A stretch of 64,000 nucleotides of DNA. It comes from Leisingera thetidis (lineage in GTDB: Bacteria; Pseudomonadota; Alphaproteobacteria; Rhodobacterales; Rhodobacteraceae). Shown piece after piece: positions 6,346-28,087 of this stretch (positions are counted from its first letter, which is position 1; every line of letters starts with the position of its first letter). The notes under the pieces were generated by a model. The model was not told the origin of the DNA. It searched no databases and saw only the letters and a program-made list of their open reading frames with translations. The translations under genes were made by a program, and so were the position numbers. The stretch is from positions 809,501 through 873,500 of the forward strand of contig NZ_CP109787.1 of NCBI RefSeq assembly GCF_025857195.1, written 5' to 3'.

Positions 6346-6416
6346 CTGTCCCACCCGCCCAGGGCCGGGCGTTGCCCTCACCGGTTTTTTCGAAGATTGC
6401 GGATGCTGGCTCTTGG

Positions 6417-9395: not shown

Positions 9396-10232
9396 TCAGC
9401 GGCCGCGGGTCCAGCGGGACCGGGAGGCAAAGAGCGGGGATTTGACCGCCAGGGCAACCAGGGCATAGGCAAGAAACCCGGCTGGATCCGCCAGCAGCAG
9501 GCTCAGAACCGTCCGTTTGGCCGGCGGCAGCTTGTCGTCATTTCTCAGCAGCTGAGGGAACTTGGCGGCGACTTCCGCCACCCCGGCATTCTGCCGCCGC
9601 CGCACCCGCACCAGGTTGCGGGCTCCTTCCACCATCGGCCAGCTGTATTCCGCTGCCACTTGCACCCGCTCCTCCGGAGTGAAATTCAGCCGGGCAAAGG
9701 TGTCATCAGCGATAATATCCGGCCAGCTTCCCCAGCGCTGCCGCCCGGCGCGGTTCATGGCGAAGACGCCGAACCCGGGCACGCCGCGGGTGAAGAACGG
9801 CAGCCGCATCCAGAGCCTGGCATAGGCGCGGGTCACCGCGCTGCGGGCGGGCGCCACCTGCGGGCGGCCGCTGGCATAGCGCGGCGCCTTCCCCGCCAGG
9901 GCCTCGGCCAGCTGCGGGATCAGCGCGGGCGAGACCCGCACATCGGCGTCCAGATAGATCAGGATCTCTCCCCGGGCGGCGGCATCGCCTGCAGTCAGCG
10001 CCCGCAGTTTGCCGCCCTCCGGTTGCTCCAGCACCCGCAGCGGCCAGCCGGGCGGCGGCTCGGATGCCCGGGCCAGCGAAGCTGTCCCGTCCGAACAGCC
10101 GTTGGCCAGCACCAGAACCTCAGCAGTCACGCCTGCGGGCAGCGGCGCCGACGCGAAGACCGCCCGGAGACACTCCGCAATGTACCTGGCCTCGTTGTGG
10201 GCCGGGATCAGTACCGAGACGCGCGGGGTCAT
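9396..10232 (-). CDS. GT2-family glycosyltransferase
   Basis: 278 aa, GT-A fold. It starts with the strand RVSVLIPAHNEARYIAECL, then LVLANGCSDGTA, and carries the metal-binding ILIYLDADVRVSP (DxD-type) at about 95 and an acceptor-side region with ADDTFARLNF near 195. The last 60 residues include a hydrophobic stretch (TVLSLLLADPAGFLAYALVALAV), suggesting membrane association. ATG 10232 overlaps the stop of the preceding gene by 4 bases (ATGA), implying translational coupling; this makes it the last gene of the long minus-strand operon. Donor and acceptor are unknown. Confidence 0.88.
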   Translation of the reverse strand: MTPRVSVLIPAHNEARYIAECLRAVFASAPLPAGVTAEVLVLANGCSDGTASLARASEPPPGWPLRVLEQPEGGKLRALTAGDAAARGEILIYLDADVRVSPALIPQLAEALAGKAPRYASGRPQVAPARSAVTRAYARLWMRLPFFTRGVPGFGVFAMNRAGRQRWGSWPDIIADDTFARLNFTPEERVQVAAEYSWPMVEGARNLVRVRRRQNAGVAEVAAKFPQLLRNDDKLPPAKRTVLSLLLADPAGFLAYALVALAVKSPLFASRSRWTRGR

Positions 10233-12733
10233 TTCACCGCCTCCAGCGCGTCCCAGCGCGGGTTGCCGTCGCTTAAGGTCCGCAGGGCGCCCCAGCTGCC
10301 CCATTTCCCGGGCACGCCAACATCCGCATAAGCCGTGAACAGAGACCCGCCCAGGGCGGCCCAGCCCGCCAGCAGCTCGCGGTAGAGCGCGCCCATCTCG
10401 GGCGTATAGTTGAAATGGGTGAAGAAGCCGGTGAGCGCGCCGTCCTCCACCATCGGCCCGATCCCGACCACATGGCTGCCGCCCTCATACATGATCAGTT
10501 CCAGCCCGTGCTGTCGCGCGACGCTTGCATGATAGGGCAGCACCCGGCCCAGCAGATCCGCCAGCGTGTCGGCGCTGTCGCCCGAAATCAGCCCGTCGCG
10601 CAGCTCGGCGCCTGCCTGGGCGCTTGCGGCATCATACTGGTGCCTTTCGAGGAATTCCGCCGCCGCGGCGCCGCTCAGCCCGCGTTCGGCTGCAACTGCC
10701 CGGGCCTGATCCCGGCTGTCGGCAATCCAGGAACGGACCTGTCCGGTGCGGTCCTTCAGCCCCAGAATGCCGCCGAAGTAACCCGTTACCGCATAAGCGT
10801 CGAAATAGGCCGCGGGCACCTGGCGGTCCGGCTGCTCCGCCTTCCACAGCGGCGCCGCCAGCACCTGCTCCTCCAGCCCCAGCCAGCCGGTCTGCGAGGA
10901 GACCACCCGCACCAGCCGTCCGCTGTCCTCGCCAAAGACACCGGTCCAGATCTGCGCGATCTCCGCGGCGCGGCCGCCGTAGAACTGCATCCACAGGCCC
11001 TCGCCGCCCCAGTGCGCCTGCGCCTGGGCGTCGGCCCAGGCAGCCTGCTGGAACTGCCAGTTCCAGACCTCGTTGGAATATTCCACATAGGCGCGCAGAT
11101 CCTCGTCCAGTCCGCGCTCCGCCAGCCGGGCGAACTGGCGGACAAAGCTGTCATCCGCCATATGCGGCATGCTGAACCAGGGATCGGCGCCCAGCGTGTT
11201 GGCCAGTGCCAGCATCACTTCGGCCGGCACGCCCTTCAGCGCCCAGGTGTAGTCCTGGGGCAGGGGGCGGTCCTCCCACCCGGTTTGGGTTGAGTCATTG
11301 GTGGCCATCCAGTCCATGAACCGCAGCGCGGCAAACCCGTCCAGCCGCTGCAGCCACAGCGGGTTGAACAGGGCGCCGTTTTCAAACGCCGCCAGATGCT
11401 CTTCCTTCACCACGGTGATGTTGCGGACGTAGTTTCCATCCCGGCCCATGCGCTGGATGCGGATCTCCACCGGACCGGGGCCGGGAGTGTAATCAAACCG
11501 CACCTCGCCCTTGCCATAGCGGACGTTGCTGGCGCGGCCCGAGACTTCGACAATGCCCTGGCCCTCAAACCGCAGCACATAGCGGCCGCTGAGGGAAACA
11601 GCCTCCTCCGGCAGGTCGGTCAGGATCACCGTGCCGATCGAGCCCAGCTCCGGCGGGATTGCGGTGGGCCAGCCGTCCGGGTCCAGATAGCCCGCCGCCA
11701 GCAGATCGCCATGATCCGCGCCGCCCCAGCGTTTGGGAAGGTGGCCGATCCAGGGCCGCGCGGATTTGAAATGGTCGAGGAACGGCGCCTGGCTGCTCCA
11801 ATCCGCAATAGCCGCCAGATTGATGGCAATGGGCTGGCGGGCGGGTTTCTCCGCCGGAACCGGCGGGTCATCCAGCAACGCGGCGTTGAGCACGGGCAAG
11901 GCCGGTTCCTGCGGCAGTGCCGCCGGGTCCTCCGGCAGCGCCGCCGAGCGCACGGCGGAACCCTGTGCCGCCGCCCAGGCGATGTCCTGCAGCCGCGCGG
12001 CCAGTTCGGGCGAAGGCGCGGGATAGGGCGAGCCCCAGCGGCCGCTCAGCCGGTGCGGCAGACCCGCAGGGTCCTCCCCGGTCAGCACCGCATATTGCAG
12101 CAGCGCCAGAAAGTAGAAGCCGGTGGCGTTGGGGTGAATGTCGTCGGCAAACACATCGGCGATACTGCCAAGGCCCGGCATCGTGCCTGCCTGGATCGCA
12201 TCGTCCAGCCGTGCCATCGCCTGGCCGGCGGGCAGCAGTTTCACGGTGCCGCCGGTTGCGGCATTGACCGCCTCCACCACCGCCTGCCAGCGCGGCAGAT
12301 CCTGCTCCAGCCGCTGCCGCCAGGGCACATCCGCGCCGTCGTCAAAGGGCACTGCGGCGCCGGTGCCGCTGTTCAGGCTGTGCCAGGTTTCCTGCAGGTA
12401 GAAGTCCACATCCGGGTTTGCCGCCCGGGCCAGCTCATAAAACCGGGTGACGGCGTCTTCGGTGCCGCTCCATTTCAGGTGGTTGGCCAGCGGAATGGCC
12501 TCGGTCACGATCACCGCATCGGCCGGGCGGCGAAGCCTTTCACGTGAATCGGCACCCTCGGCGGTGCTGCTGTGCTGCCAGTTGTAGCTGAGCGGCGCGC
12601 CATTGATGATCTGCGCTTCGACGGTGGCTTCTGCGCGGGTATCCAGCAACTGCTCCAGCATCTGCGGATTGTCCGGCCCGAACAGCGAATGGCCGATCAT
12701 CACAACCGAGGTGATCAGCGTCTCCAAATTCAT
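10229..12733 (-). CDS. SGNH-hydrolase domain fused to a clan GH-A-like glycosidase domain
   Basis: 834 aa two-part protein. Residues 1-235 look like an SGNH/GDSL hydrolase: MIGHSLFGPDNPQML supplies a G-x-S-L nucleophile block and ADDIHPNATGF a D-x-x-H pair. Residues about 300-834 form a large domain with an EYSNEVWNW motif near 545 and LIMYEGGSH near 755. In clan GH-A glycosidases an N-E pair at strand 4 is the acid/base and a Glu at strand 7 the nucleophile; these two sites fit that layout, but the assignment is inference. Databases often call this domain a cellulose-binding protein. I see no signal peptide. ATGA overlaps join it to genes on both sides. The N-terminal part is a paralogue of the next gene's product. 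Confidence 0.72.
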   Translation of the reverse strand: MNLETLITSVVMIGHSLFGPDNPQMLEQLLDTRAEATVEAQIINGAPLSYNWQHSSTAEGADSRERLRRPADAVIVTEAIPLANHLKWSGTEDAVTRFYELARAANPDVDFYLQETWHSLNSGTGAAVPFDDGADVPWRQRLEQDLPRWQAVVEAVNAATGGTVKLLPAGQAMARLDDAIQAGTMPGLGSIADVFADDIHPNATGFYFLALLQYAVLTGEDPAGLPHRLSGRWGSPYPAPSPELAARLQDIAWAAAQGSAVRSAALPEDPAALPQEPALPVLNAALLDDPPVPAEKPARQPIAINLAAIADWSSQAPFLDHFKSARPWIGHLPKRWGGADHGDLLAAGYLDPDGWPTAIPPELGSIGTVILTDLPEEAVSLSGRYVLRFEGQGIVEVSGRASNVRYGKGEVRFDYTPGPGPVEIRIQRMGRDGNYVRNITVVKEEHLAAFENGALFNPLWLQRLDGFAALRFMDWMATNDSTQTGWEDRPLPQDYTWALKGVPAEVMLALANTLGADPWFSMPHMADDSFVRQFARLAERGLDEDLRAYVEYSNEVWNWQFQQAAWADAQAQAHWGGEGLWMQFYGGRAAEIAQIWTGVFGEDSGRLVRVVSSQTGWLGLEEQVLAAPLWKAEQPDRQVPAAYFDAYAVTGYFGGILGLKDRTGQVRSWIADSRDQARAVAAERGLSGAAAAEFLERHQYDAASAQAGAELRDGLISGDSADTLADLLGRVLPYHASVARQHGLELIMYEGGSHVVGIGPMVEDGALTGFFTHFNYTPEMGALYRELLAGWAALGGSLFTAYADVGVPGKWGSWGALRTLSDGNPRWDALEAVK

Positions 12734-13668
12734 CCCGTTTCTCCAGCCGCAGGCAATCCGGTGCGGGGCAGGGCGCGCACCACGTGCCAGACGATCCGCT
12801 GCACCGCGGCTGCGGCTTCGGCGCTGAACGCCTCTGCCGGGCTGCCATCGGTGCGGGTCAGTTGGTGCGGCAAGCCCAGAGGCGGGCGCTGGTAGAGCAC
12901 CGCGTAATGGGTCAGCGCCACCACATATGCCCCCAGATCGTTGAAATGGATCGGATCCTGACTGCCGTCCGGCGCCCGCCCGAACAGATGCGCGGGCTTG
13001 GTGACGCCTTCGATTTCACCGCGCGCTCCCGCCCGCGCCACCGCCGCCATCGCCTGGCCGCCGGGAATCAGATAGACCGGGCTGTCCGGGTCACGGCGGC
13101 TGTGCGGCGCCAGCACCTTGCCCACCCAGAGATCCTCCAGGTCCGCGTCGACCCGGTTCAGCCAGCCATCCGGGTCATCGATCCAATGCCAGGTTTCGTA
13201 GAGATAGATCCGTGCCGCCGTGGAGGCCGAACGGGCCAGGCCTGCCCATTTCCCAAGGTATTCAGCCGAGCCGAAATAGCGGACGGCGTCGCGCAGTTCG
13301 ACCATTTCCGTCAGCACCACGGCATCATACTCGCCGGAGCCGACGGCTTCTTTCGCATCGCGGAAGGCGGGCGGCTGGTTGGCAATGCCGAAGTCGAGGA
13401 TCTCTTCCTCCGGCTCCCAGTGCGCCCGCAATGGCGTGCCCGAGCCAAGCTGGCTGTTGTAGCCGTGCCCTGCCGGCGCCAGCTGCGCCAGCATATGCGG
13501 CATGTCCGGGCCGACCAGCGAATGGCCGAGATGAAACACTTTCAGCGGGCCTTCGGGCCGGGTCAGGGGAGGCGGCACCGGCACAGAACGGCCGCGGGTT
13601 GCAAACACCATCAGCCCCAGCGTTGCGGCTGCCGCGCCCAGGGCCAGAAACCCGCGGCGCCCCATCAT
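12730..13668 (-). CDS. SGNH/GDSL-type hydrolase with Tat-like signal
   Basis: 312 aa. The N-terminus MMGRRGFLALGAAAATLG has a twin arginine and a hydrophobic stretch, resembling a Tat signal or signal anchor, so the enzyme probably acts outside the cytoplasm. FHLGHSLVGPDMPHML gives the nucleophile Ser block and QDPIHFNDLGAY the Asp/His pair. An IPGGQAMAAVARAG segment matches LPAGQAMARLDDAI in the downstream fusion protein, showing that the two are paralogues. Such hydrolases often remove or move acyl groups on carbohydrates; the substrate here is unknown. It overlaps the phosphopantetheinyl transferase upstream and the fusion gene downstream by 4 bases each. Confidence 0.72.
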   Translation of the reverse strand: MMGRRGFLALGAAAATLGLMVFATRGRSVPVPPPLTRPEGPLKVFHLGHSLVGPDMPHMLAQLAPAGHGYNSQLGSGTPLRAHWEPEEEILDFGIANQPPAFRDAKEAVGSGEYDAVVLTEMVELRDAVRYFGSAEYLGKWAGLARSASTAARIYLYETWHWIDDPDGWLNRVDADLEDLWVGKVLAPHSRRDPDSPVYLIPGGQAMAAVARAGARGEIEGVTKPAHLFGRAPDGSQDPIHFNDLGAYVVALTHYAVLYQRPPLGLPHQLTRTDGSPAEAFSAEAAAAVQRIVWHVVRALPRTGLPAAGETG

Positions 13669-14354
13669 CCGCGCCCCCGGATTTCCGCCGTGGTGATGAT
13701 CAGCCCGGCGCCAACCGCAAACCGCCCGCCAACCGCCTCGCCGCGCGCAAACGGCGGCCGGTCGGCAGTGAAAAAGGCCTGGTAGGCGCCTGCCGCCAGG
13801 TCGAATTCCAGCTCCATCCCGTCGAAGCCGTAAAACGCCCGGCTCAGCGTGTACTGGGCTTTGTAGGCGGCTTCCTTGGCGGAAAAGACCACTTTGGCCA
13901 TCTGCCCGGGATTGTCCTGCCGCCGCAGCCAGGCCTGTTCGCGCTCCGAACAGATCGCGGGCAGCAGCTCGTCCTTCAGGGGCGTGTCTTCCTCCAGGTC
14001 GATCCCCAGGCCCTGCACCTCGCCAGCCCGGGCCAGCACCGCCATGGCGCAGCTTTTGGTGTGGGTGATGGAGCCGACCAGCCCCTCCGGCCAGACCGGT
14101 GCGCGGTCGCTGCCGACCTGCACCGGGGCAGGGGGCAGCCCCAGCTGCCGCATTGCCTGATGCACCGCGGCCCTGCCTGCGGCAAATTCGTTGCGCCGCT
14201 TCTCAACCGCATTGGGCGACAACCCTGCGGCCTCGGCCGCCAAGGGGGCCGGCGGGCTGCCCAGCGGGTCCGCCCCGGCCAAGGCCGCATCGGCGGCAAA
14301 AAGCGGCCGGACCAGGGCCAGCCGCTCGGCAAGTTTGCTGTTATCTTCGGTCAT
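13665..14354 (-). CDS. 4'-phosphopantetheinyl transferase (Sfp/EntD type)
   Basis: 229 aa. It should transfer phosphopantetheine from CoA to the Ser of the carrier domains in the NRPS and PKS of the same operon. Motifs: GSITHTKSCAMA (P2-type) at about 95, GIDLEEDTPL (metal-binding Asp/Glu) at about 117 and FSAKEAAYKAQY (W/F-x-x-K-E-A) at about 160, all in the right order and spacing. Start ATG 14354 overlaps the NRPS stop by 4 bases and its own stop overlaps the SGNH gene, so it is translated with them. The presence of a dedicated activating enzyme strongly supports a working assembly line. Confidence 0.92.
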   Translation of the reverse strand: MTEDNSKLAERLALVRPLFAADAALAGADPLGSPPAPLAAEAAGLSPNAVEKRRNEFAAGRAAVHQAMRQLGLPPAPVQVGSDRAPVWPEGLVGSITHTKSCAMAVLARAGEVQGLGIDLEEDTPLKDELLPAICSEREQAWLRRQDNPGQMAKVVFSAKEAAYKAQYTLSRAFYGFDGMELEFDLAAGAYQAFFTADRPPFARGEAVGGRFAVGAGLIITTAEIRGRG

Positions 14355-17300
14355 CCGGCCTTTGCCCTGCGGTTTGCCCGCATGGCCCGGCGCTTCGACA
14401 TGGTGTCGGCGCGGTCCGGCCCTGCGGTGTCCTGAGGCTGTTGTTCCGCATTTGCCGGGGTGCCTGCAAGCCCCTCGATATGCGCCGCCAGCCCGGCCAG
14501 CGTCGGGAAGCGGAAGATATCGGTGATCGACAGCTTCGCGGTGTTCAGTTCCTGCCGCAGCTCCCGGTGCGCCTGCACCGCCAGCAGCGAATGGCCGCCA
14601 AGGGCAAAGAAGTTGTCCTGCGCCCCGATGCCGCTGACGCCCAGGATGCGGCTCCAGACCGTGGCGATCCGCGCCTGCGCGCCGTCCGCAAGCGGGGCAG
14701 CCGAGGCAGCCTCGGTGCGGGCGGGCTGCGGATCAGGCAGCGCCTTGCGGTCGATTTTCTTGTTCGGCGTCAGCGGGAAAGCCTCCAGCGTGACGATGTG
14801 GGCGGGCACCATCACTTCCGCCAGTTTGCCGGCCAGCGCCTGTTTCAGCGCGTCTTCGGACACCGGCGCGGAGGCGGTGATATAGCCGGCCAGCTGTTCC
14901 GCCCCGCTGTCGCCGCGCGGCACCGCCACTGCGCCGGTCACACCGGGGTAGGCGGCCATGGCGGCTTCGATCTCCCCCAGCTCGATCCGCTGGCCGCGGA
15001 TCTTCACCTGGTGGTCGGTGCGGCCCAGGAAGGCAAGCGTGCCTGCCGCTGTCCAGCGCACCAGATCGCCGGTGCGGTAAAGGCGGCCCTCAGCGAACGG
15101 TGCGTTTACAAACCGTTCAGAAGTCAGCTCTTCCCGCTGCCAATACCCTGTCGTGACGCCCGCTCCGCCGATGTGCAACTCGCCGGGAGTCCCCGCGGGG
15201 ACAGGCGCTTGTTTTTCGTCCAGCACGTAAACTTGCGTGTTGGCAACCGGCGAGCCGATCCCGGCTGTCCCCGCGGGGACAGAGGTGATTTTCTCCACCG
15301 TTGACCAGATCGTGGTCTCGGTCGGACCGTACATGTTGTGCAGCTCCGCCCCTGTCGCGCCCTGCAAGGCCTGCACCAGATCCCCGGGCAGTGCCTCGCC
15401 CCCCACCAGCAGATGCTGCAGCCGGCCCAGACAGGCGCTGGCGTTTTCATCGGCCGCAATCATCCGCGCCATCGATGGCGTGCATTGCATGTGGGTCACC
15501 CCATGCCGCACGATCTGCGCCGCCAGCGAGAAGTCATCCGCCGCCAGCTCCTGCGGCGCGTTCGACAGGCGCAGCACTTCGGCCAGCGGCTTCAGCCCTT
15601 CAAGCACCACGTCAGGCGCGATGCCATAGTCGATCAGACAGGCAATCTCATCCACCCCGATGCGCTTCAGCTGCTCCACCCGCTGGCAGGCGTCCGGAAT
15701 GGTGCCGAACAGGCCGGACTCCTCGAAATAGCGTTCAAAGGCGAAGTCGAGGATCGCTTCCAGCTCTTCCTCCGACAACATCCCGAGGTCCATCTCAAAC
15801 GGGTTTTTGACACCTTCGGGTTTCTTGAAGGCGGGGAAGGCCCAGGCGTATTGCTTGATCAGCCCGGCGGCGGAGCGCAGGTAGTCCTTCATCGGCTCGC
15901 GCGCGACCTTGCGGGCCTCCTCGCGGGTCTTTGCCAGATAGCTGTGCAGCATCAGGGTGACCTTGAACGCCGCCGGGTCATGGCCCGCTGCGCGCAGGGC
16001 ATCATGGTAGATGCGGATCTTGCCCGCCACCTCGTCAATGCTCTGGCCCAGAAGATGGGTCAGCACGTTTGCCCCAATCGCCCCGGCCTCGCGCCAGGTT
16101 TCCGGGTTGCCCGCCGTGGTGACCCAGACCGGCAGCTCCTTGGAGACCGGGCGGGGCTGCGTAAGAACACTATGCTCGCCGCCATCCTTGCGCGGGAAGG
16201 CGACTGCCTCGCCGCGCCAGAGCTTGCGCACGGTTTCGATGGTTTCGAACAGCGCGGGTTTGTTGGCGGGCGGGGTGTTTTCAGGCCGCAGGATGAAATC
16301 GTCCGGCTGCCAGCCGGAGGCAAAACCGATGCCTGCGCGCCCGGCGGTCAGGTTGTCGATCACCGCCCATTCCTCGGCAATCCGCGCCGGGTGGTGCAAG
16401 GGCGCCACGCAGGACCCCGAGCGCACCCCGATATTCTGCGTCACCGCCGCCACTGCGGCCCCGGTCACCGACGGGTTCGGATAGGGGCCGCCGAACGCGT
16501 GGAAGTGCCGTTCCGGCGTCCAGACCGCATTGAAGCCGTGGCTGTCGGCAAACTTGGCGCCCTCCAGCAGCAGATGGTATTTCTGCGGCCCCGGTCCGTC
16601 GTCATTGCCCCAGTAGAACAGGTTGAAGTCCATCTTGCGGCCGCTGAGCGCCACCGGTCCCTTGGACAGTTCCAGCCGGCTTTCGTCGCTCGACAAGACC
16701 AGCTTGAAACCGCGCGTGAGCGTCCAGAACAGCTCCAGCACCGAGATGTCAAAGCTGAGGCTGGTGACTGCCAGCCAGGCATCGCCGGGCTGATGCGGGA
16801 TGCGCTGGTCCATGCCGGTGAAGAAGTTCGACACATTGGCATGGGTGACCATCACCCCCTTGGGCAGGCCGGTGGAGCCGGAGGTGTAGATCAGATAGGC
16901 CAGGTCCCGGCCTGTGGCTCCGCCGTCGATGGCGTCTGTGTCTGCGGCGGAAACACTCTCAATCTCAAGCACTTGCGCATCCGATGCCGGCAGGCTGCCG
17001 GCCAGCGCGCCTTGCGTCACGATCACCTGCGCCTGGCTGTCGCGAATGTAATGCGCGATCCGGTCCGCCGGATAGGCGGGGTCCAGCGGCACATAGGCGC
17101 CGCCGGCCTTCATCACCGCCAGGGCAGCAAAGACCAGCTCCGGCGCGCGGCGGATATGGATGCCCGCATGCACGCCCGGTTTCACGCCCATTTCACGCAG
17201 GCGCCTGGCAACCGCATTGGCGCGGGCGTTGACCTCGGCGTAGGTAAAGCTCTGGTTCTCGAACACCAGTGCCGTGGCGTCCGGGGTCCTGGCGGCCTGC

Positions 17301-18913: not shown

Positions 18914-19926
18914 TTCTGCTCCTTCGCTTGCGGAGAGAGGGGGCGCGTTTCCAGGGACGGTTTGCGGCGGGGCGCGGCTGCGGCGCGCAGGCCGTGCAGG
19001 ATCAGGTCGCGCAGAAAATGCGGCGGATCAGCCTGCGGCTTGTCAGAAATCAGGCGGCGCAGCCCGTAGATCAGGCTGCCTGCGATGCGCGCCAGCGTGG
19101 CGGCCGCGGCATAGGCGCGGCCGTGGTGTTTCACGAAGTAATGCAGCCGCGAGTCGAACCAGTACCGGGGCGTGCGGTCCCAGGTCTTCATGCCGGTCGA
19201 AGCGGACCCCACATGCGCCACCTCGCTGGACGGCACGTAATGGGTGCGCCAGCCGGCGCGGGCAGCGCGGCGGCAGAGGTCGGTTTCCTCGAAGTAGAGA
19301 AAGAAGGACTCGTCAAAGCCGCCCACCGCTTCGATCACCTCGCGGCGGATCATCAGGCTGGCACCGGCAGTCCAGTCGACCTGCTGCTCGTTCTGCGGCA
19401 TGTCCATGGCGACCACCCAGTGCTTCAGCAGCCGGGTGAAGATGCCGGTGCGCACGCTGGCCTCGAACTCCGCCGCGATGGAGGGGAAGCGGAAGGCGGT
19501 GCGGTGCGGCTCCCCGTCCATTCCACGCACGTAGGAACCGGCCAGGCCGGCGCCGGGGCGTTCCTGCAGAAAATCGCGCAAGGAGCGGATGGTCCTGCCC
19601 TGCACAAAGGCGTCGGAGTTCAGGAGATAGTAGAAATCCGGCGCGCTGCCGTCCGGCAGCCCGGCCTTGATGCCGATGTTCATGCCGGCACCAAAGCCGC
19701 CGTTGACAGGGGAGGCCAGCAGCTGCAGCCGGCCGCTGTCCAGCCAGCCGCGGGCTTCCGCTTGTGCGCGGATGCGGTCAAAGGAGCCGTCGCCCGATCC
19801 GTTGTCGATGATCAGCAGCCCGCCCGGCAGCTCCTCCATTTCGCGCAGGGCCGCCTCGGCGGTCTGCAGAGTCATCTCCGGCGTGCGGAAGTTGAGAAGG
19901 ATGGCGAGGATGCGCTGGTCTTTCAT
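18910..19926 (-). CDS. GT2-family glycosyltransferase (rhamnosyltransferase-like)
   Basis: 338 aa, GT-A fold. It opens RILAILLNFRTPEMTLQTAE with LIIDNGSGDGS, then NGGFGAGMNIGI, the YYLLNSDAFVQ metal site near 108, and GASLMIRREVIEAVGGFDESFFLYFEETD near 210 (split here across the conserved ED block), the pattern of WbbL-type rhamnosyl or related transferases. It lies between the PKS (4-base gap) and the NRPS (ATGA overlap), so it is made with them. That position suggests sugar transfer to the PKS/NRPS product or its glycan carrier, rather than a plain backbone step; this is inference. Confidence 0.88.
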   Translation of the reverse strand: MKDQRILAILLNFRTPEMTLQTAEAALREMEELPGGLLIIDNGSGDGSFDRIRAQAEARGWLDSGRLQLLASPVNGGFGAGMNIGIKAGLPDGSAPDFYYLLNSDAFVQGRTIRSLRDFLQERPGAGLAGSYVRGMDGEPHRTAFRFPSIAAEFEASVRTGIFTRLLKHWVVAMDMPQNEQQVDWTAGASLMIRREVIEAVGGFDESFFLYFEETDLCRRAARAGWRTHYVPSSEVAHVGSASTGMKTWDRTPRYWFDSRLHYFVKHHGRAYAAAATLARIAGSLIYGLRRLISDKPQADPPHFLRDLILHGLRAAAAPRRKPSLETRPLSPQAKEQK

Positions 19927-19930
19927 GGGG

Positions 19931-22900
19931 TCACTCTGCGGCTTCGGCGTAGCGGTGCGGTGCGGCAGTGGCGTCGGCGGCGTCGAGAACCGATTTCAGC
20001 TGCTGGGCCAGCACCGCCACATTGGGCACCAGCACCATGCTGTTGTGATCGCCCGGCACCTCTAACACGCGTGTGTCAGGCGCCCATTTGCACCAGTCGT
20101 TGTCGGCATGGACATACTCCCGGGCGGTGCTGACCCACTGCCCGCCCGAGACCCGCCAGCGCTGGTCGAGCGGCGGCCGGAACAGTACAACGGAACCGTC
20201 CCAGGGCCGGATTTCATAGGCACCGATCGCTGTGCGGAAAGCGGCCTCCATCTTCATATTGTCAAATTCGGCCTTGCCCGGTGCGGGTGGCGGTGCCTTG
20301 CGCCGCGCGACCTCCCAGGCGATGCGGGTTCTGGCCCATTCCCCCAGGAAGGCGGGACCGCGTTCCTGGAACTGGCGCATCTTGATCAGCGCCTTGTCTT
20401 TCCGGCTTAGCTCCGGGCGCAGGGGCAGCGGCGTGTCGAGCATGGCGACCACCGCGGTGTCCGCGCCGGTGTCTTTCAGTTGCTGCGCCATCTCATAGGC
20501 GGTGATGCCGCCGCCGGAATAGCCGCCCAGCAAGTAGGGGCCCTGTGGCTGCACCTGGCGCACCTCCCGGAGGTAGTCACGCGCAGCGTCCACCAGCGAA
20601 ATGTGCGGGGCTTCGCCGCCGACCAGCCCCTTGGCCTGCAGGCCGAAAACCGGGCGGTCCTCGCCAAGGAGCAGCGCCAGGTGGCGCAGGTTCAGCACAT
20701 TCCCGAACATGCCGGCGACCAGGAAGAACGGCCGCCGCCCGGTGCCGTCGCCCGGATGCAGCTGCACCAGGTGGCGGTAGTGCGGTGTCTCCTGCAGCGC
20801 TGCGGGCGCGCCGCCCGGCTCCGCGGCGGTCCCGCCGCCGGTGCGCTCGATGATCCGCTCCGCCAGTGCCGCGACGCTGGGTGCCTCGAACAGCACCGAC
20901 ATCGGGAATTCCACTCCAAAGCTGCGTTTCACCTGGGCAAACAGCCGTACGGCAATCAGCGAGTGGCCGCCAAGGTCAAAGAAACTGTCCTCGATGCCCA
21001 CCTGTGACACCCCCAGGAGGGAGGCAAAAAGCTGGGCCAGATCCTCTTCCACCGGGTTGCGGGGGGCGATGTAATCGGTGTCAAGCTGCGGGCGCTCAAA
21101 GGTCTGGACCTCACCCGCGGCGGGGGCGGCGGATTGCGCGGCCTGGGCAATCAGCGCAGGAAGGTCGAGCGAGGAGACCACCACCTGCGGCAAGCCGGCG
21201 GCCAGCGCCCGGGCCAAGGCCTCGCCGCCTTCACTGGCCCTGATGCCATTGGAGATGTTCAGCTGCAGGCGGCGTTCCTCGGGCGACAAGGGCTGTGCAG
21301 CGCGGGCGGGCTGCAATCCCGGCTGCGCGGCGCTGGCGCCGGGCTCTGCGGCACGGGCAGAGACGTCAAAGCCGGCGGCCAGGCGCTGCATCCTGAAGCC
21401 TTCGATTTCGGCCAGCACGGTGCCTTCGTGATCAGTCAGGGTCACGTCGAAGGCTGCGGATCTGCCGTCCGGCGTCCCGGCCAGCCGCACGTGGCTGCAG
21501 ATCTTCGGGGGCAGCGGCGCAAATACCAGGATGGAGCTGTAGGACACCGGCACCCAGAGGGCATCCGCCTGATACCCGGGGATCAGGTTCACCGCCCAGC
21601 CGGTGGCCAGGTCCATCAGTCCGGGATGCAGCAGGGTGCCGTCCCGCGCCGCAGCGCCGGGCAGCGAAAGACAAGCCAGCCCTTCGCCATCCCCCAGTGC
21701 CGCGCGCTCCAGCACATGCCAGCGCGGGCCGAAGCGCAGGTGCGCCTCCTGCGGGGATCGCAGGCGCCCGCCGATTGGCGCCTGCTCCTCCGGGCATCGG
21801 GTGAAAATCTTCTGGAGGTTGAGTGCGGCGGGGCGTTCTGCCGCCGCCGCTGAGGCCAGCATTGCCTGACAATTCAGAGAGTAACCATTTGTACACGCCG
21901 CGTAAACAAACAGTTCATAACCATTTTCGTTAGCTTCTAGATTAACCTGAACGGTCTTGGGGCTGCCCTCTTGCACAATCATAGGGCGCAAAAAATAAAG
22001 GTCGCGGATTTCGAACGGCGCGTCAATGCCGGCCGCGGCCAATGCTTCGGCGGCCATTTCTATGTAGCCTGTGCCGGGCACCAGGGCCGTGCCGTCTGCA
22101 GTGCGGTGCTCGTCCAGCAGCCAATCGGCGGTGCTGAAGCGGGGGGTGAAGACGGGGTTGCCGCCGGCGTCAAAGGCGCGTTGCTGCAGCAGCGGCTGCG
22201 GGCAGGGCTCCGGCGCGCTGGCGTCCGCGGCGCTGGTGCGGGCGCTCATGGCGTCGGCGGCCATCCCGGTGTCCGCCCAGACGCCCCAGTCCACTGAGAT
22301 GACGCGGGTCTGCCCGCCTGCACGGTGCCTGGCCCAGGCGTTGAGGTATTCATTGGCGGCAATGTAATCCACCTGGCCTGCGGGCCGGGCCGCCGTGGAG
22401 GAGGAGGAAAACAGCACCATCAGTTCCAGGCTGCCGTCCGGGAACACCGCGTCGAGCGCCCGTAGCCCGCTGACCTTGGGGGCCAGGACCCGGGCGATCT
22501 GGGCCTCGTCCTTGGCCAGCAGCGGGCCATCGCTGATGACGCCTGCACCGTGCAGGACGCCGGTGAGCGGGCCGTTTTGCGTCTCGGCCTGTTCCCTGGC
22601 GCTGCGCAGTTCGCCGGCGTGGCAGACATCGGCGGCCAGCGGCAGCACGGCACCGCTGCCGGCTTCCTCCAAAGCCATTACCGCGCGGATGCGCCGGGCG
22701 GTCCGGCTGGCCGGGCTTTGGCTGCGCAGGCAACGCGCCCAGTCGGTGCGCGGCGGCAGCCCTTCGCGCGAGATCAGCGAGATCTTGGCGCCGTATTCGC
22801 GCATCAGGTAACCCGCGATGGTCAGGCCGATGCCGCCGTATCCGCCGGTGATCAGGTAGTGGCCGCCCTGCTTGAACACCGGCGTTTCCGGCGCGGGCAG

Positions 22901-25900
22901 GGGCTGCGGGCGCCAGCCGAGCTCAAAGCGTTTTTCCCCGCGCCAGGCGGCAGTGGCATTGGCCGGTTCCGCCATGAGTTCTTCCAGCAGGCGGGGGGTG
23001 ATGTCTGTTTGCGCCGGTTTTCGCCGGGCAAACAGGCCCTGCGGCTGTTGCGGCAGTTCGATGTCCACGGTGGCGCAGCTGAGGCCGGGCAGCTCCCGCG
23101 GGATCACCCCGGCGGGGCCTGCGATCATCGCCTTTTCCGGGTAGGGCAGCGCTTCGTCCCGCACCTGCGCGGCACCGGTGGTGAAGACAGTAATGTGCAC
23201 CGGGCCGGGCAGACCGGCATTGCCCAGCTCCTGCGCCAAGGCAGTCAGGGAGTGAAAGCCCGTCTCCAGATTGCGGTCGAAGAAGGAGGAACCGGGGCGG
23301 AAGCTCTCGCCCTCTGTCACCAGCCAGAAATGGGCGATCCGGTCCGGCAGCAGCCCAGCCGCCGCCAGATCCGCCAGCAGCGCGCCATAGGCGGCGCGGC
23401 CCTGCTCCGGCGGCAGCATGTAGGAGCCTGGCGCCAGCTGCGCATAGGTGTCGCCTGCCCGCACCCGGGCAACGGTATGGCCTGCGGCCTCCAGCCGGTC
23501 TGCCGCGCGGGCGGCGTGGCCGGTCTCGTCCTCGAAGATCAGCCAGTTATGGAGTTCCTGGTCCAGATCCTGTTCCACGTCGAGGCTGCAATCGGCCAGC
23601 CGCGGGCGCCAGGCGGGGCGGTAGCCCCAGTCCGTCAGGTCTTCGTGCCGGGCCGGGGCGTCAGCCTCTTCCCGGACCGCGGGCTGGCCCGGTTCGATGA
23701 AATAGCGGCTGCGCTGGAAGGCGTAGCCGGGCAGCGGCAGCCGGTTGCGGCGCGCCCCGCCCCAGATCTGCGGCCAGTCGGCCTCGACCCCGCAGGCCCA
23801 GAGCCGGCCGATGACGCCGAAGAAATAGCTGTCGTCCATCACCTGCTGGTCCGGATGGCGCAGGGAGCTGAGCACCTGGCCCGGCTGCACGGCAGGCGAC
23901 ATCTGCGCCAGCGCGCTCAATGCCTTGCCGGGACCCACCTCCAGGAACACGCGGTTCGGAGTCCTGGCGAGCGTTTCGATGCAATCGGCGTAGCGCACGG
24001 TGTTGCGCAGCTGTTCCACCCAGTAGTCGGCGCTGGCGGCCTGATCGGCGGTCAGCGGCGCGCCGGTGCGGTTGGAGATCACCGGCAGGGTCGGCGCCGA
24101 CAGGGGCAGCGAGCGGATGAAATCGCCATAGTCCTGCAGGATGCCGTCCAGCATCCGGGAGTGGGCGGCAATGTCGATCGGGATGCGCTGGTGTTCCACC
24201 TCGCGGGCGGTCAGCTGCTCTGACAGACGGTCCAGCGCCTCCTGCGGGCCGGACACCGCGGTGAGCGCAGGCGCATTGACGCTGGCAATGTCGAGTTCAT
24301 CGCCGATGAGAGCTTCCACCTCCGCCAGGGGCAGGGCGATGGACAGCATGCCGCCTGCGGGCACTGTGTCAAACAGCCGTCCGCGCAGCAGCACCAGGTC
24401 GATGCAGTCCTCAAAGGACATCACTCCGGCTAGGCAGGCGGCGGTATTTTCGCCCATGGAATGGCCGACCAGCGCGGCGGGCCTCACCCCCCAGCTGATC
24501 CACAGCTGCGCCAGCGCGTATTCCACGATCATGATCAGCGGCAGCTGCACCGAGGGCTGCTGCAGCTTGGCATTGGCCGCCTCTTCTTGGCCGTCTTCCG
24601 GCAGCCAGACCGCGCGGATGTTGTAATCCAGGCTCTTTTGCAGATGCTGCAGCCCGCGGTCCATCCAGTCGGCAAAGACCGGCTCGGTCTCATAAAGGTC
24701 GCGCGCCATGCCAGCATATTGCGCACCGCCGCCGGGGAACATGAACACCACCTTCGGCGCATCGCCCAGGCGGTCGTGGGTAAAGACCCTGCGCGGATCG
24801 TTTTCCTCAATCAGCGCAATGGCTTCGTCAGCGGTTTCCGCCACCAGAACCCGCCGTTTGGCAAAGCCGCGGCGGCCTTCTTTCAGCGTATAGGCAACGT
24901 CAGCCAGATCAGCCCCGGGGTTGGCGCGCAGATAGTCCGCCAGCGCCTGGGTGTTGGCGTCCAGCGCGGCCTTGCCATGGCCGGAGACGCAGAGGACCTG
25001 GAACGGGAAATCGCTTTCTTCGGAGGCTGCACGTTCCGGCGCTTCCTCCAGGATCACATGGGCATTTGTGCCGCCGACGCCCAATGAGTTGACGCCCGCC
25101 CGCCGCGGTCCCTTGGGCGGTGTCCAGGGTGTCAGCTCCGCATTCACGCGGAACGGCGACGTTTCGAAATCAATAGCCGGGTTCGGCGCCTCAAATCCCA
25201 GCGAGGGCGGGATTTCCTTGTGGTGCAGCGCCAGTGCTGTCTTGGTCAGGCTGGCGACGCCCGCCGCCGTGTCCAGATGGCCGATGTTGGTCTTGACCGA
25301 ACCGATGCGGCAATAGCCGCTGTCCTGCGTGCTGGCACGGTAGGCGTCGGTCAGCGCCGAGACCTCAATCGGGTCGCCCAGATAGGTGCCGGTGCCGTGG
25401 CATTCGACGTAGCCGATGGTCTCCGCCGGGGTGCCTGCGGCCTGCAGCGCGGCTTGCACCGCCGCCGACTGGCCGCCGACCGACGGCGCCAGATAGCCCG
25501 CCTTGTCCGCGCCGTCGTTGTTGATCGCCGAGCCCTTGATCACTGCCCAGATGTGGTCGCCATCAGCCACCGCATCCTCCAGCCGCCGCAGCGCCACCGC
25601 GCCGGCGCCGGAGCCGAAGACCGTGCCTTGCGCCCGGTGGTCGAAGGCGTGGCAATGGCCGTCCGGGCTGAGGATCTCGTTTTCCTTGTAGAGGTAGCCG
25701 CGGCCCTGCGGCAGTTCGATGGTGACACCGCCCGCCAGCGCCATTTCGCATTCGCCCTCACGCAAGGCCTTGCAGGCGTAGTGCACCGCCACCAGCGAGG
25801 TGGAGCAGGCGGTCTGCACATTGACCGATGGTCCCTTCAGGTCGAACACATGGCTGACGCGGGTCGACAGGAAGTCCTTGTCGTTGCCGGTGTGGCGCAG

Positions 25901-26377
25901 CAGGAACATGCCGACGTCATCGACCAGGGCGGGGTTCGAGCAGATGTTGAAATAGAAATAGCTGCCCATGCCGCAGCCGGCATAGACGCCAATGGGGCCG
26001 CTGATGCTCTCGGGCGGGCGGCCCGCGTTTTCCATCGCCCCCCAGGCGACCTCCAGGAACTTGCGGTGCTGCGGGTCGAGAATGGCGGCTTCCTTGGGGC
26101 TGAAGCCAAAGAACTCGGCATCGAATTCGTCAAACCCCTGCAGCCGGGCGGCTGCAGGCACATAGTTCGGATCGGCGAGGACAGATGCCCGCTCGCCACC
26201 CGCCAGCAGGGTTTCCCGGTCCAGCACTTCAATCGATTCAATGCCCGCGCGCAGGTTCTGCCAGAACGCCTCGGCCGAGCCCGCGCCCGGCACCGTCACC
26301 GACAGCCCGACAATGGCAATATCTGCGGCCGCAGTCTTTTCTGCAGCGCCCCCCGCTGCGGGTTTCCCATCCTGCAT
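19931..26377 (-). CDS. Modular type I polyketide synthase KS-AT-KR-DH-ACP-TE
   Basis: 2148 aa. Domain order with approximate residues: ketosynthase 15-440 (TACSTSL, ECHGTGTYLGDP, KTNIGHLDTAAG); acyltransferase 545-830 (FMFPGGGAQYAGMA, GHSMGEN, IAAHSRMLD); a linker with no clear motif 900-1170; ketoreductase 1175-1370 (LITGGYGGIGL, then Y-x-x-x-N in GQVDYIAANEYL); dehydratase 1400-1680 (DEHRTADGTALVPG, LHPGLMDLATGW); acyl carrier near 1800 (LGGHSLIAV); thioesterase 1880-2130 (GYSGGG, AMLDTPLP, PGDHNSM). The ketoreductase comes before the dehydratase, the reverse of the usual order. ATG 26377 is chosen because the KS begins about 15 residues later; earlier in-frame sequence is Arg/Gln-rich filler. 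The terminal thioesterase should release or transfer the product. The IAAHS motif does not settle the extender unit. Confidence 0.93.
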   Translation of the reverse strand: MQDGKPAAGGAAEKTAAADIAIVGLSVTVPGAGSAEAFWQNLRAGIESIEVLDRETLLAGGERASVLADPNYVPAAARLQGFDEFDAEFFGFSPKEAAILDPQHRKFLEVAWGAMENAGRPPESISGPIGVYAGCGMGSYFYFNICSNPALVDDVGMFLLRHTGNDKDFLSTRVSHVFDLKGPSVNVQTACSTSLVAVHYACKALREGECEMALAGGVTIELPQGRGYLYKENEILSPDGHCHAFDHRAQGTVFGSGAGAVALRRLEDAVADGDHIWAVIKGSAINNDGADKAGYLAPSVGGQSAAVQAALQAAGTPAETIGYVECHGTGTYLGDPIEVSALTDAYRASTQDSGYCRIGSVKTNIGHLDTAAGVASLTKTALALHHKEIPPSLGFEAPNPAIDFETSPFRVNAELTPWTPPKGPRRAGVNSLGVGGTNAHVILEEAPERAASEESDFPFQVLCVSGHGKAALDANTQALADYLRANPGADLADVAYTLKEGRRGFAKRRVLVAETADEAIALIEENDPRRVFTHDRLGDAPKVVFMFPGGGAQYAGMARDLYETEPVFADWMDRGLQHLQKSLDYNIRAVWLPEDGQEEAANAKLQQPSVQLPLIMIVEYALAQLWISWGVRPAALVGHSMGENTAACLAGVMSFEDCIDLVLLRGRLFDTVPAGGMLSIALPLAEVEALIGDELDIASVNAPALTAVSGPQEALDRLSEQLTAREVEHQRIPIDIAAHSRMLDGILQDYGDFIRSLPLSAPTLPVISNRTGAPLTADQAASADYWVEQLRNTVRYADCIETLARTPNRVFLEVGPGKALSALAQMSPAVQPGQVLSSLRHPDQQVMDDSYFFGVIGRLWACGVEADWPQIWGGARRNRLPLPGYAFQRSRYFIEPGQPAVREEADAPARHEDLTDWGYRPAWRPRLADCSLDVEQDLDQELHNWLIFEDETGHAARAADRLEAAGHTVARVRAGDTYAQLAPGSYMLPPEQGRAAYGALLADLAAAGLLPDRIAHFWLVTEGESFRPGSSFFDRNLETGFHSLTALAQELGNAGLPGPVHITVFTTGAAQVRDEALPYPEKAMIAGPAGVIPRELPGLSCATVDIELPQQPQGLFARRKPAQTDITPRLLEELMAEPANATAAWRGEKRFELGWRPQPLPAPETPVFKQGGHYLITGGYGGIGLTIAGYLMREYGAKISLISREGLPPRTDWARCLRSQSPASRTARRIRAVMALEEAGSGAVLPLAADVCHAGELRSAREQAETQNGPLTGVLHGAGVISDGPLLAKDEAQIARVLAPKVSGLRALDAVFPDGSLELMVLFSSSSTAARPAGQVDYIAANEYLNAWARHRAGGQTRVISVDWGVWADTGMAADAMSARTSAADASAPEPCPQPLLQQRAFDAGGNPVFTPRFSTADWLLDEHRTADGTALVPGTGYIEMAAEALAAAGIDAPFEIRDLYFLRPMIVQEGSPKTVQVNLEANENGYELFVYAACTNGYSLNCQAMLASAAAAERPAALNLQKIFTRCPEEQAPIGGRLRSPQEAHLRFGPRWHVLERAALGDGEGLACLSLPGAAARDGTLLHPGLMDLATGWAVNLIPGYQADALWVPVSYSSILVFAPLPPKICSHVRLAGTPDGRSAAFDVTLTDHEGTVLAEIEGFRMQRLAAGFDVSARAAEPGASAAQPGLQPARAAQPLSPEERRLQLNISNGIRASEGGEALARALAAGLPQVVVSSLDLPALIAQAAQSAAPAAGEVQTFERPQLDTDYIAPRNPVEEDLAQLFASLLGVSQVGIEDSFFDLGGHSLIAVRLFAQVKRSFGVEFPMSVLFEAPSVAALAERIIERTGGGTAAEPGGAPAALQETPHYRHLVQLHPGDGTGRRPFFLVAGMFGNVLNLRHLALLLGEDRPVFGLQAKGLVGGEAPHISLVDAARDYLREVRQVQPQGPYLLGGYSGGGITAYEMAQQLKDTGADTAVVAMLDTPLPLRPELSRKDKALIKMRQFQERGPAFLGEWARTRIAWEVARRKAPPPAPGKAEFDNMKMEAAFRTAIGAYEIRPWDGSVVLFRPPLDQRWRVSGGQWVSTAREYVHADNDWCKWAPDTRVLEVPGDHNSMVLVPNVAVLAQQLKSVLDAADATAAPHRYAEAAE

Positions 26378-26623
26378 CGTCAATACCTGACCCACTGGCC
26401 CTTCAAGAACAGCCCGGCGCCTGCTTTGCAGAACTGGCATAAGCCCGCCGGACCGGTTGATTTGAGATGCCGGGGTTCTCCCCGGCTGTTGTTCCGTTCC
26501 GCGGCGCCAGATCCCCATCTGCGCCGCGGGCCGGTGTCATCCTGTTTACAGTCGTCAATCCATAGGGCCAGCCTGTGGACGCATTGTGTCAAATTGAGCC
26601 GGAAAAGCGGAAAGATTGCGGCA
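26378..26623 (-). other. Gap upstream of the PKS gene
   Basis: 246 non-coding bases between the end of the Wzy-like gene and the PKS start, by far the largest gap in the minus-strand run. It is AT-richer at 26540-26620 and contains TTGACA on the minus strand (26592-26587), with TATGGA 22 bases further on, a spacing too long for a standard promoter. I think an internal promoter for the PKS-to-GT2 genes is likely here, but I cannot define it. Confidence 0.35.
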
Positions 26624-28087
26624 TCACAGGATGCTGCGCCGCTCTGGCCCGGCGGTATCAGGCAGCATCGCCTGCGCACCGCCAAATAATGCGGGTTTGG
26701 CGCGGAACAAGTCCGGGTAGAGCAATCGCTCGGCATAGCCCAGCACCGACCCGGCGCACATCCAGGTAATCGGGATCAGCGTTGCGTTCAGCAGCATGTC
26801 GACCATGGTGGCGGCCAGAATCAGCGCAATCGGCGCGGCATAAGGCGGGACGCTGCCCTTCGGCGCCCGGCGCGCCGCGCGGGCCAGCAGCACCAGCGGT
26901 GCCGCCAGCAGCCCCATCTCGGCGATGTAGCCCAGCCAGCCGAAAGTGCCGAACACAATGATCCAGCGGCCGTCCGGGATCGACAGGATCCGGCCGGTTT
27001 CCTCATGGCGCACCAGGTTGCGGCCCCAGCCGCCCCAGCCGAACCAGGGCTTCTCAGCAGCGCGTGCCAGCAGCTGCGCCTCATTTTCAAACCGGTAATT
27101 CAGCGACTGCGCCCGCTCGGTGCTGATCATCTCGGCCTGGGCCACCAGTGCATCGGTCGGCACCAGGCCGGTGTTGCGCAGCATCGGGTAGACCACCGCG
27201 ATCACCGCCAGCAGCAGCGCCGCCCGCAGCTGCCAGCGCAGGGGCGCCAGCGCCACCACCGGCGTAAAGGCCAGCGCATAAGCCAGCGAGGCCAGGCTCT
27301 TGCACAGCACGAGCACCGCAAACAGATAACCCGCCGCCAGTGCCAGGCGGACCCGGTGCCCGCGGGACGACGCACGGGCCAGGGCGGTGGCGGCCAGCAG
27401 TGCCGAAAGCATGAAAAACGCCAGCCACAGCGCATGCGGCAGAAACACGATGGGGCGGAAGCCGCCCTGGCGCATCATCTGGCTGAAGTCATGCTGGAAG
27501 AAGCCATAGACCCAGATGTTGATCTGCGGGCTGAGCCGGATTTCGATCAGCGACGGGATGGAATAGGCCAGCCCGCCGATCATCAGCGCCAGCAGCAGTT
27601 CGCGCTGGGCTTCCGGAGTGGACAGGTAGCGGCGCGCCAGCAGAAAGGGCATCAGCACGATCACCTGATTGATCACAACCGAGCCGAGATCCCGCCAGCG
27701 CAAGCCGGGCAGCTGATCGGTGAGAAAGATGATCGGATCTGAATTGGCGATCTTTCGGAACAGGACCGGCTCGCCATTGGTCAGCACGGTAGGGATGACC
27801 CCGAACACGAACAGCAGCGTCAGCAGCCGCACCGCCGGATGCCGCGGCAGCAGCGGCACCGGCTTGCGCAGCAGAAACAGGCACAGCAGGAAGGCCATCA
27901 CCGAAGGGATGGCGAACTTGTCCATGTCGGGCACAAGCGGCAGGTCGAATTCGGCCAGCGGCGGCAGCAGCAGATAGCCTGCGATGATGCACCACAGGAT
28001 CGCCCGTTCCAGCGGCAGGCGCCGGAACAGGATCAGGCTGGCCAGCGGCCAGGCCAGCAGCATCAGATAGGCCAAAGCATTGGGCAA
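26624..28087 (-). CDS. O-antigen polymerase/ligase-like (Wzy/WaaL) membrane protein
   Basis: 487 aa, about 11-12 hydrophobic segments. Wzy-type proteins join repeat units in the periplasm; WaaL-type proteins transfer the chain to an acceptor. The large periplasmic loop has the pattern AEKPWFGWGGWGRN at about 345-360, like the G-W-G block of Wzy_C-type proteins, followed by FGTFGWLGYIAEMGLL. It precedes the PKS on the same strand. Family members are too divergent to tell polymerase from ligase by eye. The start at 28087 gives MPNALAYLMLLAWPL, a membrane segment straight away. Confidence 0.8.
   Translation of the reverse strand: MPNALAYLMLLAWPLASLILFRRLPLERAILWCIIAGYLLLPPLAEFDLPLVPDMDKFAIPSVMAFLLCLFLLRKPVPLLPRHPAVRLLTLLFVFGVIPTVLTNGEPVLFRKIANSDPIIFLTDQLPGLRWRDLGSVVINQVIVLMPFLLARRYLSTPEAQRELLLALMIGGLAYSIPSLIEIRLSPQINIWVYGFFQHDFSQMMRQGGFRPIVFLPHALWLAFFMLSALLAATALARASSRGHRVRLALAAGYLFAVLVLCKSLASLAYALAFTPVVALAPLRWQLRAALLLAVIAVVYPMLRNTGLVPTDALVAQAEMISTERAQSLNYRFENEAQLLARAAEKPWFGWGGWGRNLVRHEETGRILSIPDGRWIIVFGTFGWLGYIAEMGLLAAPLVLLARAARRAPKGSVPPYAAPIALILAATMVDMLLNATLIPITWMCAGSVLGYAERLLYPDLFRAKPALFGGAQAMLPDTAGPERRSIL

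Follow-up and report, generated by a model that had tools for sequence, protein, structure and literature searches.

We describe a minus-strand operon of Leisingera thetidis in which a polyketide synthase (PKS) and a non-ribosomal peptide synthetase (NRPS) are encoded together with glycosyltransferases inside an exopolysaccharide (EPS) locus. The window, i.e. the whole stretch of DNA that was analysed, comprises 64,000 nt of assembly GCF_025857195.1 (contig NZ_CP109787.1, positions 809,501-873,500 of the forward strand), and all positions are given relative to it. Our preferred reading, to which we assign a probability of roughly 60%, is that PKS and NRPS form an assembly line dedicated to one Wzx/Wzy-type EPS and supply a short N-formylglycine-derived acyl group that decorates the repeat unit or lies within it. 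Product and attachment are predicted from gene order, domains, conserved residues and the tie of the assembly line to EPS and Wzy genes. The core of PKS, glycosyltransferase, NRPS and 4'-phosphopantetheinyl transferase (PPTase) was already known; what we add is its link to an EPS of the Wzx/Wzy type and a predicted chemistry primed by N-formylglycine.

Organisation and conservation of the operon

From 28087 down to 9396 the minus strand carries, in this order, the genes for Wzy, PKS, GT2a, NRPS, PPTase, SGNH, SGNH-glycosidase (SGNH-GH) and GT2b; coordinates, strand and gene order were given correctly in the original prediction for this DNA. Counts of related loci refer to the best 80 of at least 574 stretches obtained when GTDB contigs were scanned with a formyltransferase alignment, matches to locus content being counted at E <=1e-6.

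26624..28087, minus strand: Wzy-like polymerase / O-antigen ligase family membrane protein, TTG start (Pfam Wzy_C, E 9e-4)
19931..26518, minus strand: type I PKS, one module KS-AT-(KR prefix)-KR-DH-ACP-TE (Pfam and NCBIfam domains)
18910..19926, minus strand: GT2a, family 2 glycosyltransferase between PKS and NRPS (Pfam; 80/80 loci)
14351..18913, minus strand: NRPS starter module with formyltransferase, remnant C region, A domain with embedded monooxygenase, and PCP; no TE
18038..18913, minus strand: formyltransferase domain, NRPS residues 1-292, triad N87 H89 D125
15575..16627, minus strand: MupA/Atu3671-type luciferase-like monooxygenase using flavin mononucleotide (FMN), NRPS residues 763-1113 (TIGR04020)
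13665..14354, minus strand: PPTase (Pfam 4PPT_N and ACPS; 74/80 loci)
12730..13668, minus strand: SGNH-type protein, twin-arginine-like N-terminus by eye (no Pfam hit)
10229..12733, minus strand: SGNH domain fused to a clan-A-like glycosidase domain (predicted structure, Foldseek; no Pfam hit)
9396..10304, minus strand: GT2b, family 2 glycosyltransferase (Pfam); start likely at 10232 by ATGA overlap

Among the labels proposed earlier for these proteins, PKS, PPTase and the two family 2 glycosyltransferases (GT2) are confirmed by Pfam, whereas the Wzy-like protein stays below the Pfam cut-off (19.5 bits for Wzy_C against 31.7; hydrophobic by eye; match in 55/80 loci) and the two SGNH proteins have no hit there. 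The label NRPS holds and can be made more specific as a formyltransferase, an A domain split by a luciferase-like monooxygenase, and a PCP.

The genes are closely packed. ATGA overlaps, which had been claimed for six junctions, were counted at five: GT2a-NRPS, NRPS-PPTase, PPTase-SGNH and SGNH-SGNH/GH, and a fifth at SGNH/GH-GT2b that holds if GT2b starts at 10232 rather than 10304. The PKS-GT2a junction is a 4-base gap, and Wzy and PKS are separated by 105 bases with the longest PKS open reading frame (ORF) or by 246 bases if the PKS starts at Met48 (26377), the start that its orthologs suggest to be the more likely one. When any NTG start on a TGA stop was accepted as a 4-base overlap, such overlaps occurred across the related loci in 58/80 cases at GT2a-NRPS, 49/74 at NRPS-PPTase, 16/51 at PPTase-SGNH, 44/50 at SGNH-SGNH/GH, 42/46 at SGNH/GH-GT2b, 36/79 at PKS-GT2a and 0/55 at Wzy-PKS.

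GT2a and NRPS are each present in all 80 loci and the PKS in 76; in the four loci that lack it the contig ends within 2.7 kb upstream of the NRPS. Because GT2a and NRPS occur together in 80/80 loci and the PKS in 76/80, the arrangement is real and not due to chance. The other members are less constant: GT2b was found in 66 loci, SGNH-GH in 52, SGNH in 51 and the WecG gene located next to the operon in 49, matches over at least half of the protein numbering 63 for GT2b, 49 for SGNH-GH and 46 for WecG.

Furthermore, the distribution of the pair was assessed in an even sample of 149 Rhodobacterales genomes, Leisingera thetidis included. The NRPS is found in 64 of them, once in each (E <=1e-200). 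A PKS match is present in 71 genomes and is full-length in 64, exactly those carrying the NRPS; the seven genomes with partial PKS matches only (41-45%), as well as second partial PKS hits in two carriers, were excluded before counting. In 63/64 carriers PKS and NRPS lie on one contig and strand at a distance of 948-1951 bases, the median of 1053 bases being the size of GT2a. Across 82 loci the pairwise distances of the PKS track those of the NRPS (correlation 0.95), as expected for genes that travel together. Within a set of 337 Alphaproteobacteria the NRPS was detected in six (E <=1e-280), five of which, including Leisingera thetidis itself, belong to the family of the window. A protein search with NRPS residues 1-530 gave 1050 relatives (E <=1e-20) among 7997 scored candidates; Phaeobacter inhibens and Ruegeria pomeroyi are among the 120 matches listed.

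Association with exopolysaccharide genes

The original prediction had named conserved synteny with EPS genes across Rhodobacterales as a test. Thirty of the 63 paired loci were taken at even steps, and 15 kb on each side (two flanks were shortened by contig ends) were searched with a panel of seven EPS families, namely sugar transferase, tyrosine kinase, Wzz, OPX, Wzx, WecG and Wzy; forty 15-kb stretches taken at fixed spacing from six genomes of the same order served as controls. At least two of the families were found in 30/30 carrier flanks and at least three in 28/30, whereas none of the 40 control stretches contained any of them. The synteny thus holds strongly, and the pattern first seen in Leisingera thetidis is essentially right and more general than a single genome could show.

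A homolog of the Wzy protein is present in 64/64 carriers as compared to 21/85 non-carriers, and all 43 Wzy matches above 390 bits fall in carriers. It lies at most 25 kb from the pair in 54/63 genomes; in four of the other nine it is 44-311 kb away and in five on another contig. WecG behaves similarly, with 61/64 carriers against 13/85 non-carriers and a distance of at most 40 kb from the pair in 57/60 cases. We rejected WecG as proof of a holdfast pathway, as some WecG-family gene exists in 99/149 Rhodobacterales genomes and there is a second class of the family. This second class, with frames of 460-525 residues, occurs in many Rhodobacterales (G073:C152, G035:C33 and others) and is distinct from the WecG of this locus. 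A 30-kb stretch of the Phaeobacter plasmid pPGA1_262 contains one sugar transferase, perhaps the tested PGA1_262p00380, and no annotated WecG.

These results bear on the alternative that the assembly line makes a diffusible small molecule, such as a signal, siderophore or antibiotic, the EPS genes being merely co-located, perhaps through co-regulation in biofilms. This would agree with the placing of the cluster under secondary metabolites in a passage of PMC5014874, with the location of the Aliiroseovarius and Methylobacterium copies (see below) away from detectable EPS genes, and with the TE domain of the PKS, which could free the product. It is at odds with the presence of EPS families in every carrier flank and in no control, and with the occurrence of Wzy in all carriers, among them the 9/63 in which it lies more than 25 kb away or on another contig. 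Nor does it account for the glycosyltransferase inside the operon in 80/80 loci, and neither a TonB receptor nor a drug-type exporter was seen among the annotated genes of the locus. Having lowered it in view of the flank and Wzy co-occurrence tests, we consider this alternative rather unlikely and keep it as a rival.

The surroundings of the operon in the window are in line with an assembly line dedicated to an EPS. As had been proposed, EPS genes are present on both sides, with a sugar transferase, a kinase-like and a Wzz-like protein, Wzx and a family 4 glycosyltransferase (GT4) on one side, and a WecG/TagA protein and two GT2 on the other:

2924..3925, plus strand: initiating sugar (hexose-1-phosphate) transferase (Pfam Bac_transf, 186 bits, cut-off 27)
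3959..4918, plus strand: tyrosine autokinase-like EPS protein (TIGR03018, E 5.5e-21, below cut-off)
4936..6282, plus strand: Wzz-like chain length determinant (TIGR03007, E 6e-20, below cut-off)
6417..7805, minus strand: Wzx flippase (Pfam Polysacc_synt_3, 146 bits, cut-off 23)
7851..9230, plus strand: GT4, EpsE-like EPS glycosyltransferase (Pfam; NCBIfam EPS_EpsE, 239 bits, below cut-off 400)
28212..29033, plus strand: WecG/TagA/CpsF family glycosyltransferase (Pfam, 149 bits)
29133..30188, minus strand: GT2c glycosyltransferase (Pfam)
30080..31222, minus strand: GT2d glycosyltransferase (Pfam Glyco_tranf_2_4)

The initiating hexose-1-phosphate transferase and the Wzx flippase required of a Wzx/Wzy-type EPS locus are therefore both present. 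Wzx is the only exporter-like protein among the annotated genes between 1707 and 31980, and the WecG/TagA gene is the sole match of its family in the genome. A Wza-type (Poly_export) gene was found nowhere in the window; four exist elsewhere in the genome, the nearest about 35 kb before the window. The plus-strand ORF 6372-7769 was tried as an EPS query and discarded as the antisense of Wzx, and its matches were not counted. TamB and Omp85 (TamA-like) genes (32263-38024) adjoin the EPS locus. Further along, a glycine cleavage H protein is encoded beside an NADPH-dependent FMN reductase (43250-44554), and an NYN nuclease with an OST-HTH/LOTUS domain (45783-46784) is unrelated to the assembly line.

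Outside the sampled genomes, 17 plasmid records have one place covering at least 80% of the NRPS, and ten of these were examined. In 8/10, among them plasmids of Rhizobiales (Aminobacter, Shinella, Rhizobium), of Paracoccus and of Deinococcus, one or more core EPS families lie near the pair, panel proteins derived from a locus not being counted for that locus itself. In Deinococcus actinosclerus (L014, 16001-27986) a separate formyltransferase gene is followed by an A(LLM)-PCP gene, LLM standing for the luciferase-like monooxygenase, and then by the PKS, all inside a capsule-type locus; since the formyltransferase is encoded directly upstream of the A(LLM)-PCP gene, its function is kept without fusion. 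In the EPS locus of Paracoccus marcusii a second NRPS gene (L012, 1-1301) abuts the WecG gene. Three further loci do not belong to this panel of ten: Bradyrhizobium (L019; 37% identity) has one long NRPS among transposases, Planktothrix (L108) a PKS of 33% with no EPS genes annotated, and Tateyamaria (L109) a PKS at the end of the record, beside xrtD.

Several points weigh against an assembly line dedicated to an EPS. PKS/NRPS genes without EPS neighbours, named at the outset as a finding that would speak against the link, do occur in two of the ten plasmid loci, Aliiroseovarius (L013) and Methylobacterium (L018), and not in the other eight; no EPS marker was found near the pair in these two within the sensitivity of the panel. 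In the Aliiroseovarius plasmid (15989-29728) the formyltransferase-A(LLM)-PCP gene adjoins a 9.2-kb NRPS/PKS beside nos and xrtD, which is not an EPS locus. Conversely, plasmid pTB2 of Roseobacter denitrificans (L210) encodes a 51% identical WecG, a 37% identical glycosidase domain, XrtD and acyltransferases, and the fetched stretch has no PKS or NRPS match. A related EPS pathway can thus exist without the assembly line, and pTB2 offers a natural comparator. As to the counts, only six genomes, sampled at fixed spacings, supplied the 40 controls, the EPS panel includes the window's own proteins and so favours relatives of the Leisingera thetidis locus, and an OPX (Wza-type) match occurs in none of the flanks of the 30 loci. 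Moreover, a Wzy homolog is also present in the 21 of 85 non-carriers mentioned above, and the Fisher tests used for co-occurrence ignore shared ancestry. Finally, every step of the chemistry proposed below, as well as chain length, attachment site and trimming, is inferred from sequence, and no attachment enzyme could be identified with certainty.

Assembly line and predicted product

The NRPS has the architecture of an initiation module of the LgrA type: an N-terminal formyltransferase with the Asn-His-Asp triad and a matching fold is followed by A and PCP domains without a condensation motif. A search of the NRPS for an HHxxxDG-type motif was negative, and a full condensation domain in residues 291-530 was rejected for want of an HHxxxD motif, the structural match list covering residues 1-311. 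In 89 aligned sequences the A-domain code reads DILQ, a variable residue at 299, G, M or L, I or V, W, and K, which is of the glycine type according to what we take to be the reference Gly code. The monooxygenase domain (TIGR04020, 471 bits, cut-off 244) is inserted between the A-domain motifs A4 (position 720) and A5 (1193), as in MtaG and MelG, the terminal modules of the myxothiazol and melithiazol systems. The NRPS was not classed as a glycine-cleaving terminal module of that kind, having neither a condensation motif nor a TE. Formyltransferase and PCP catalytic residues are kept in 87-88 of the 89 sequences, the triad in 87. A PADLOC search with NRPS and GT2a gave no match.

A second alternative is that the substrate of the formyltransferase domain is an amino sugar of the EPS and that the remainder of the assembly line has a different role. 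In a structure comparison, for which the match list covers NRPS residues 1-311, methionyl-tRNA formyltransferases and ArnA differ in score by no more than about one Z unit; the same domain order recurs in the LgrA initiating module, and the formyltransferase is fused to the NRPS in 87/89 aligned sequences. All of this argues against sugar formylation, which we regard as most improbable.

The PKS provides KS, AT and ACP next to the A and PCP domains of the NRPS, i.e. the domains required of a hybrid NRPS-PKS, with their catalytic residues intact. Those of KS, AT, KR, DH, ACP and TE are conserved in 81-84 of 84 aligned PKS sequences; five PKS and two NRPS loci were too short and are omitted from the residue alignments. 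It consists of a single module, and no enoyl reductase domain was found by Pfam domain search. At its C-terminus (14354-14416) the NRPS has a basic tail like TMSKRRAMRANRR, which is conserved in its orthologs (all 15 sequences printed). This tail is possibly a docking or membrane element; it could dock for transfer of the chain from PCP to KS, as predicted from the adjacent, co-conserved genes.

In the preferred scheme the NRPS would load glycine and formylate it on the carrier to N-formylglycyl-S-PCP, and the embedded flavin monooxygenase would oxidise the glycine alpha-carbon. The chain would then move to the single-module PKS for addition of at least one malonate-type unit, reduction and dehydration, and the thioesterase of the PKS would release a short, unsaturated acyl group derived from N-formylglycine. 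After just one extension, a C4 unsaturated acid bearing nitrogen or an aldehyde carbon would be expected. The acyl group may then be attached to a sugar, and GT2a may either act on this modified sugar or glycosylate the product, whereupon the decorated repeat unit would be flipped by Wzx and polymerised by the accompanying Wzy. Where present, SGNH and SGNH-GH might later trim acyl groups or the chain.

Some features would also be compatible with a product that, as a lipid or glycolipid anchor or cap, serves to build or retain the polysaccharide, a role proposed for the PKS-like RkpA in the case of the rhizobial K-antigen. An iterative mode of action is conceivable for the PKS, the locus is part of a polymer-export system, and the capsule-type locus of Deinococcus carries a related pair. 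On the other hand, a glycine-loading, formylating starter would place a polar group at the end of the chain, the PKS has a single module in which no enoyl reductase domain was found, and a standard initiating sugar transferase is present; such an anchor is distinctly improbable. There is also a small chance that the polymer is a holdfast-like polar adhesin of roseobacters. In this case the monooxygenase would convert N-formylglycine to an alpha-hydroxyglycine or glyoxylyl starter, and the PKS would place on the sugar a C4 electrophile of the 4-oxo- or 4-hydroxy-4-formamido-crotonate type, through which the adhesin would be crosslinked or bonded to surfaces. If true, this very doubtful proposal would mean a covalent glue chemistry made by a PKS-NRPS.

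As for the accessory proteins, the SGNH protein is probably periplasmic and keeps G48-H49-S50 in 54/54 and D238 and H241 in 53/54 aligned sequences. For the predicted structure of SGNH-GH, Foldseek gave SGNH-type matches to the N-terminal part (best DUF4886 protein 4i8i, E 1.2e-7) and weak clan-A-type glycosidase matches to the remainder (best an arabinofuranosidase, E 5.4e-4). S16, D197, H200, E555 and E750 are invariant in 27 aligned sequences; a PDB sequence search with SGNH-GH gave no match, and by eye it has no obvious signal peptide. Export by a type I route is possible, because relatives of the glycosidase domain occur in proteins annotated as calcium-binding. The original prediction had the SGNH enzymes transfer or trim the group made by the assembly line; found in 51/80 (SGNH) and 52/80 loci (SGNH-GH, with a few short cross-matches among them), they were rejected as core members.

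Relation to known systems

The best solved sequence relative of the NRPS is the initiation module of linear gramicidin synthetase, LgrA, which shares the order of formyltransferase, adenylation and carrier domains and the lack of a condensation domain. The NRPS of the window differs in the monooxygenase embedded in its A domain, in its Gly-type code and in its PKS partner. With MtaG and MelG it shares a flavin monooxygenase between a4 and a5 that acts on glycine; these modules cleave glycine, release an amide and are followed by a TE, whereas the module described here is a starter that has a formyltransferase and lacks its own TE. The insertion of a flavin monooxygenase between a4 and a5 of a glycine A domain is described for the myxothiazol and melithiazol glycine hydroxylases in a passage of PMC10204066.

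The Sphingomonas promonan locus, as presented in passages of PMC11340318, resembles this locus in having a sugar transferase, Wzz, tyrosine kinase, WecG, Wzx, Wzy, several GT2, glycoside hydrolases and an acyl step. It differs in that an OafA-type acyltransferase gene is present there, and a PKS-NRPS here, with no Wza-type (Poly_export) gene in the window. The same passages report that wecG of Phaeobacter inhibens can replace Caulobacter hfsJ in holdfast synthesis, and argue that EPS assembly may depend on lipid-linked intermediates being acylated. These holdfast and acylation results fit the idea of an EPS acylated by the assembly line and do not prove it.

The original prediction knew of no described system with such a layout. 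A core of PKS, glycosyl transferase, NRPS and PPTase conserved amongst roseobacters, with its product unidentified, is in fact already named in PMC5014874 (citing Martens 2007). That article places it among the secondary metabolite clusters, and its passages on the core mention neither an EPS tie nor the domain chemistry. For Phaeobacter inhibens, PMC4062626 lists among others a PKS (Inhi_1972) and an NRPS (Inhi_1974) two tags apart, and it gives both genes as present in the laboratory strain DSM 17395. In Leisingera sp. JC1 (L033) the gene set of this orphan cluster is represented by the NRPS, GT2a, the PPTase and the terminal part of the PKS, and the operon in the window is almost certainly the same system as the cluster cited to Martens 2007. 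No earlier report of a link between EPS and this core was found in the open-licence literature, most subscription journals lying outside it.

Overall, if the assembly line indeed serves an EPS, the repeat unit of this polymer would need a thiotemplate assembly line, and the Wzy and the glycosyltransferase likely to recognise the modified sugar would have been named. This could also help to explain why no product was identified (PMC5014874), as a polymer-bound group would not show as a free metabolite. The orphan cluster could then be tested for its share in the surface polysaccharide chemistry of a large group of surface-colonising bacteria. What passages of the earlier work treat as secondary metabolism in roseobacters is here complemented by a tie to EPS genes.

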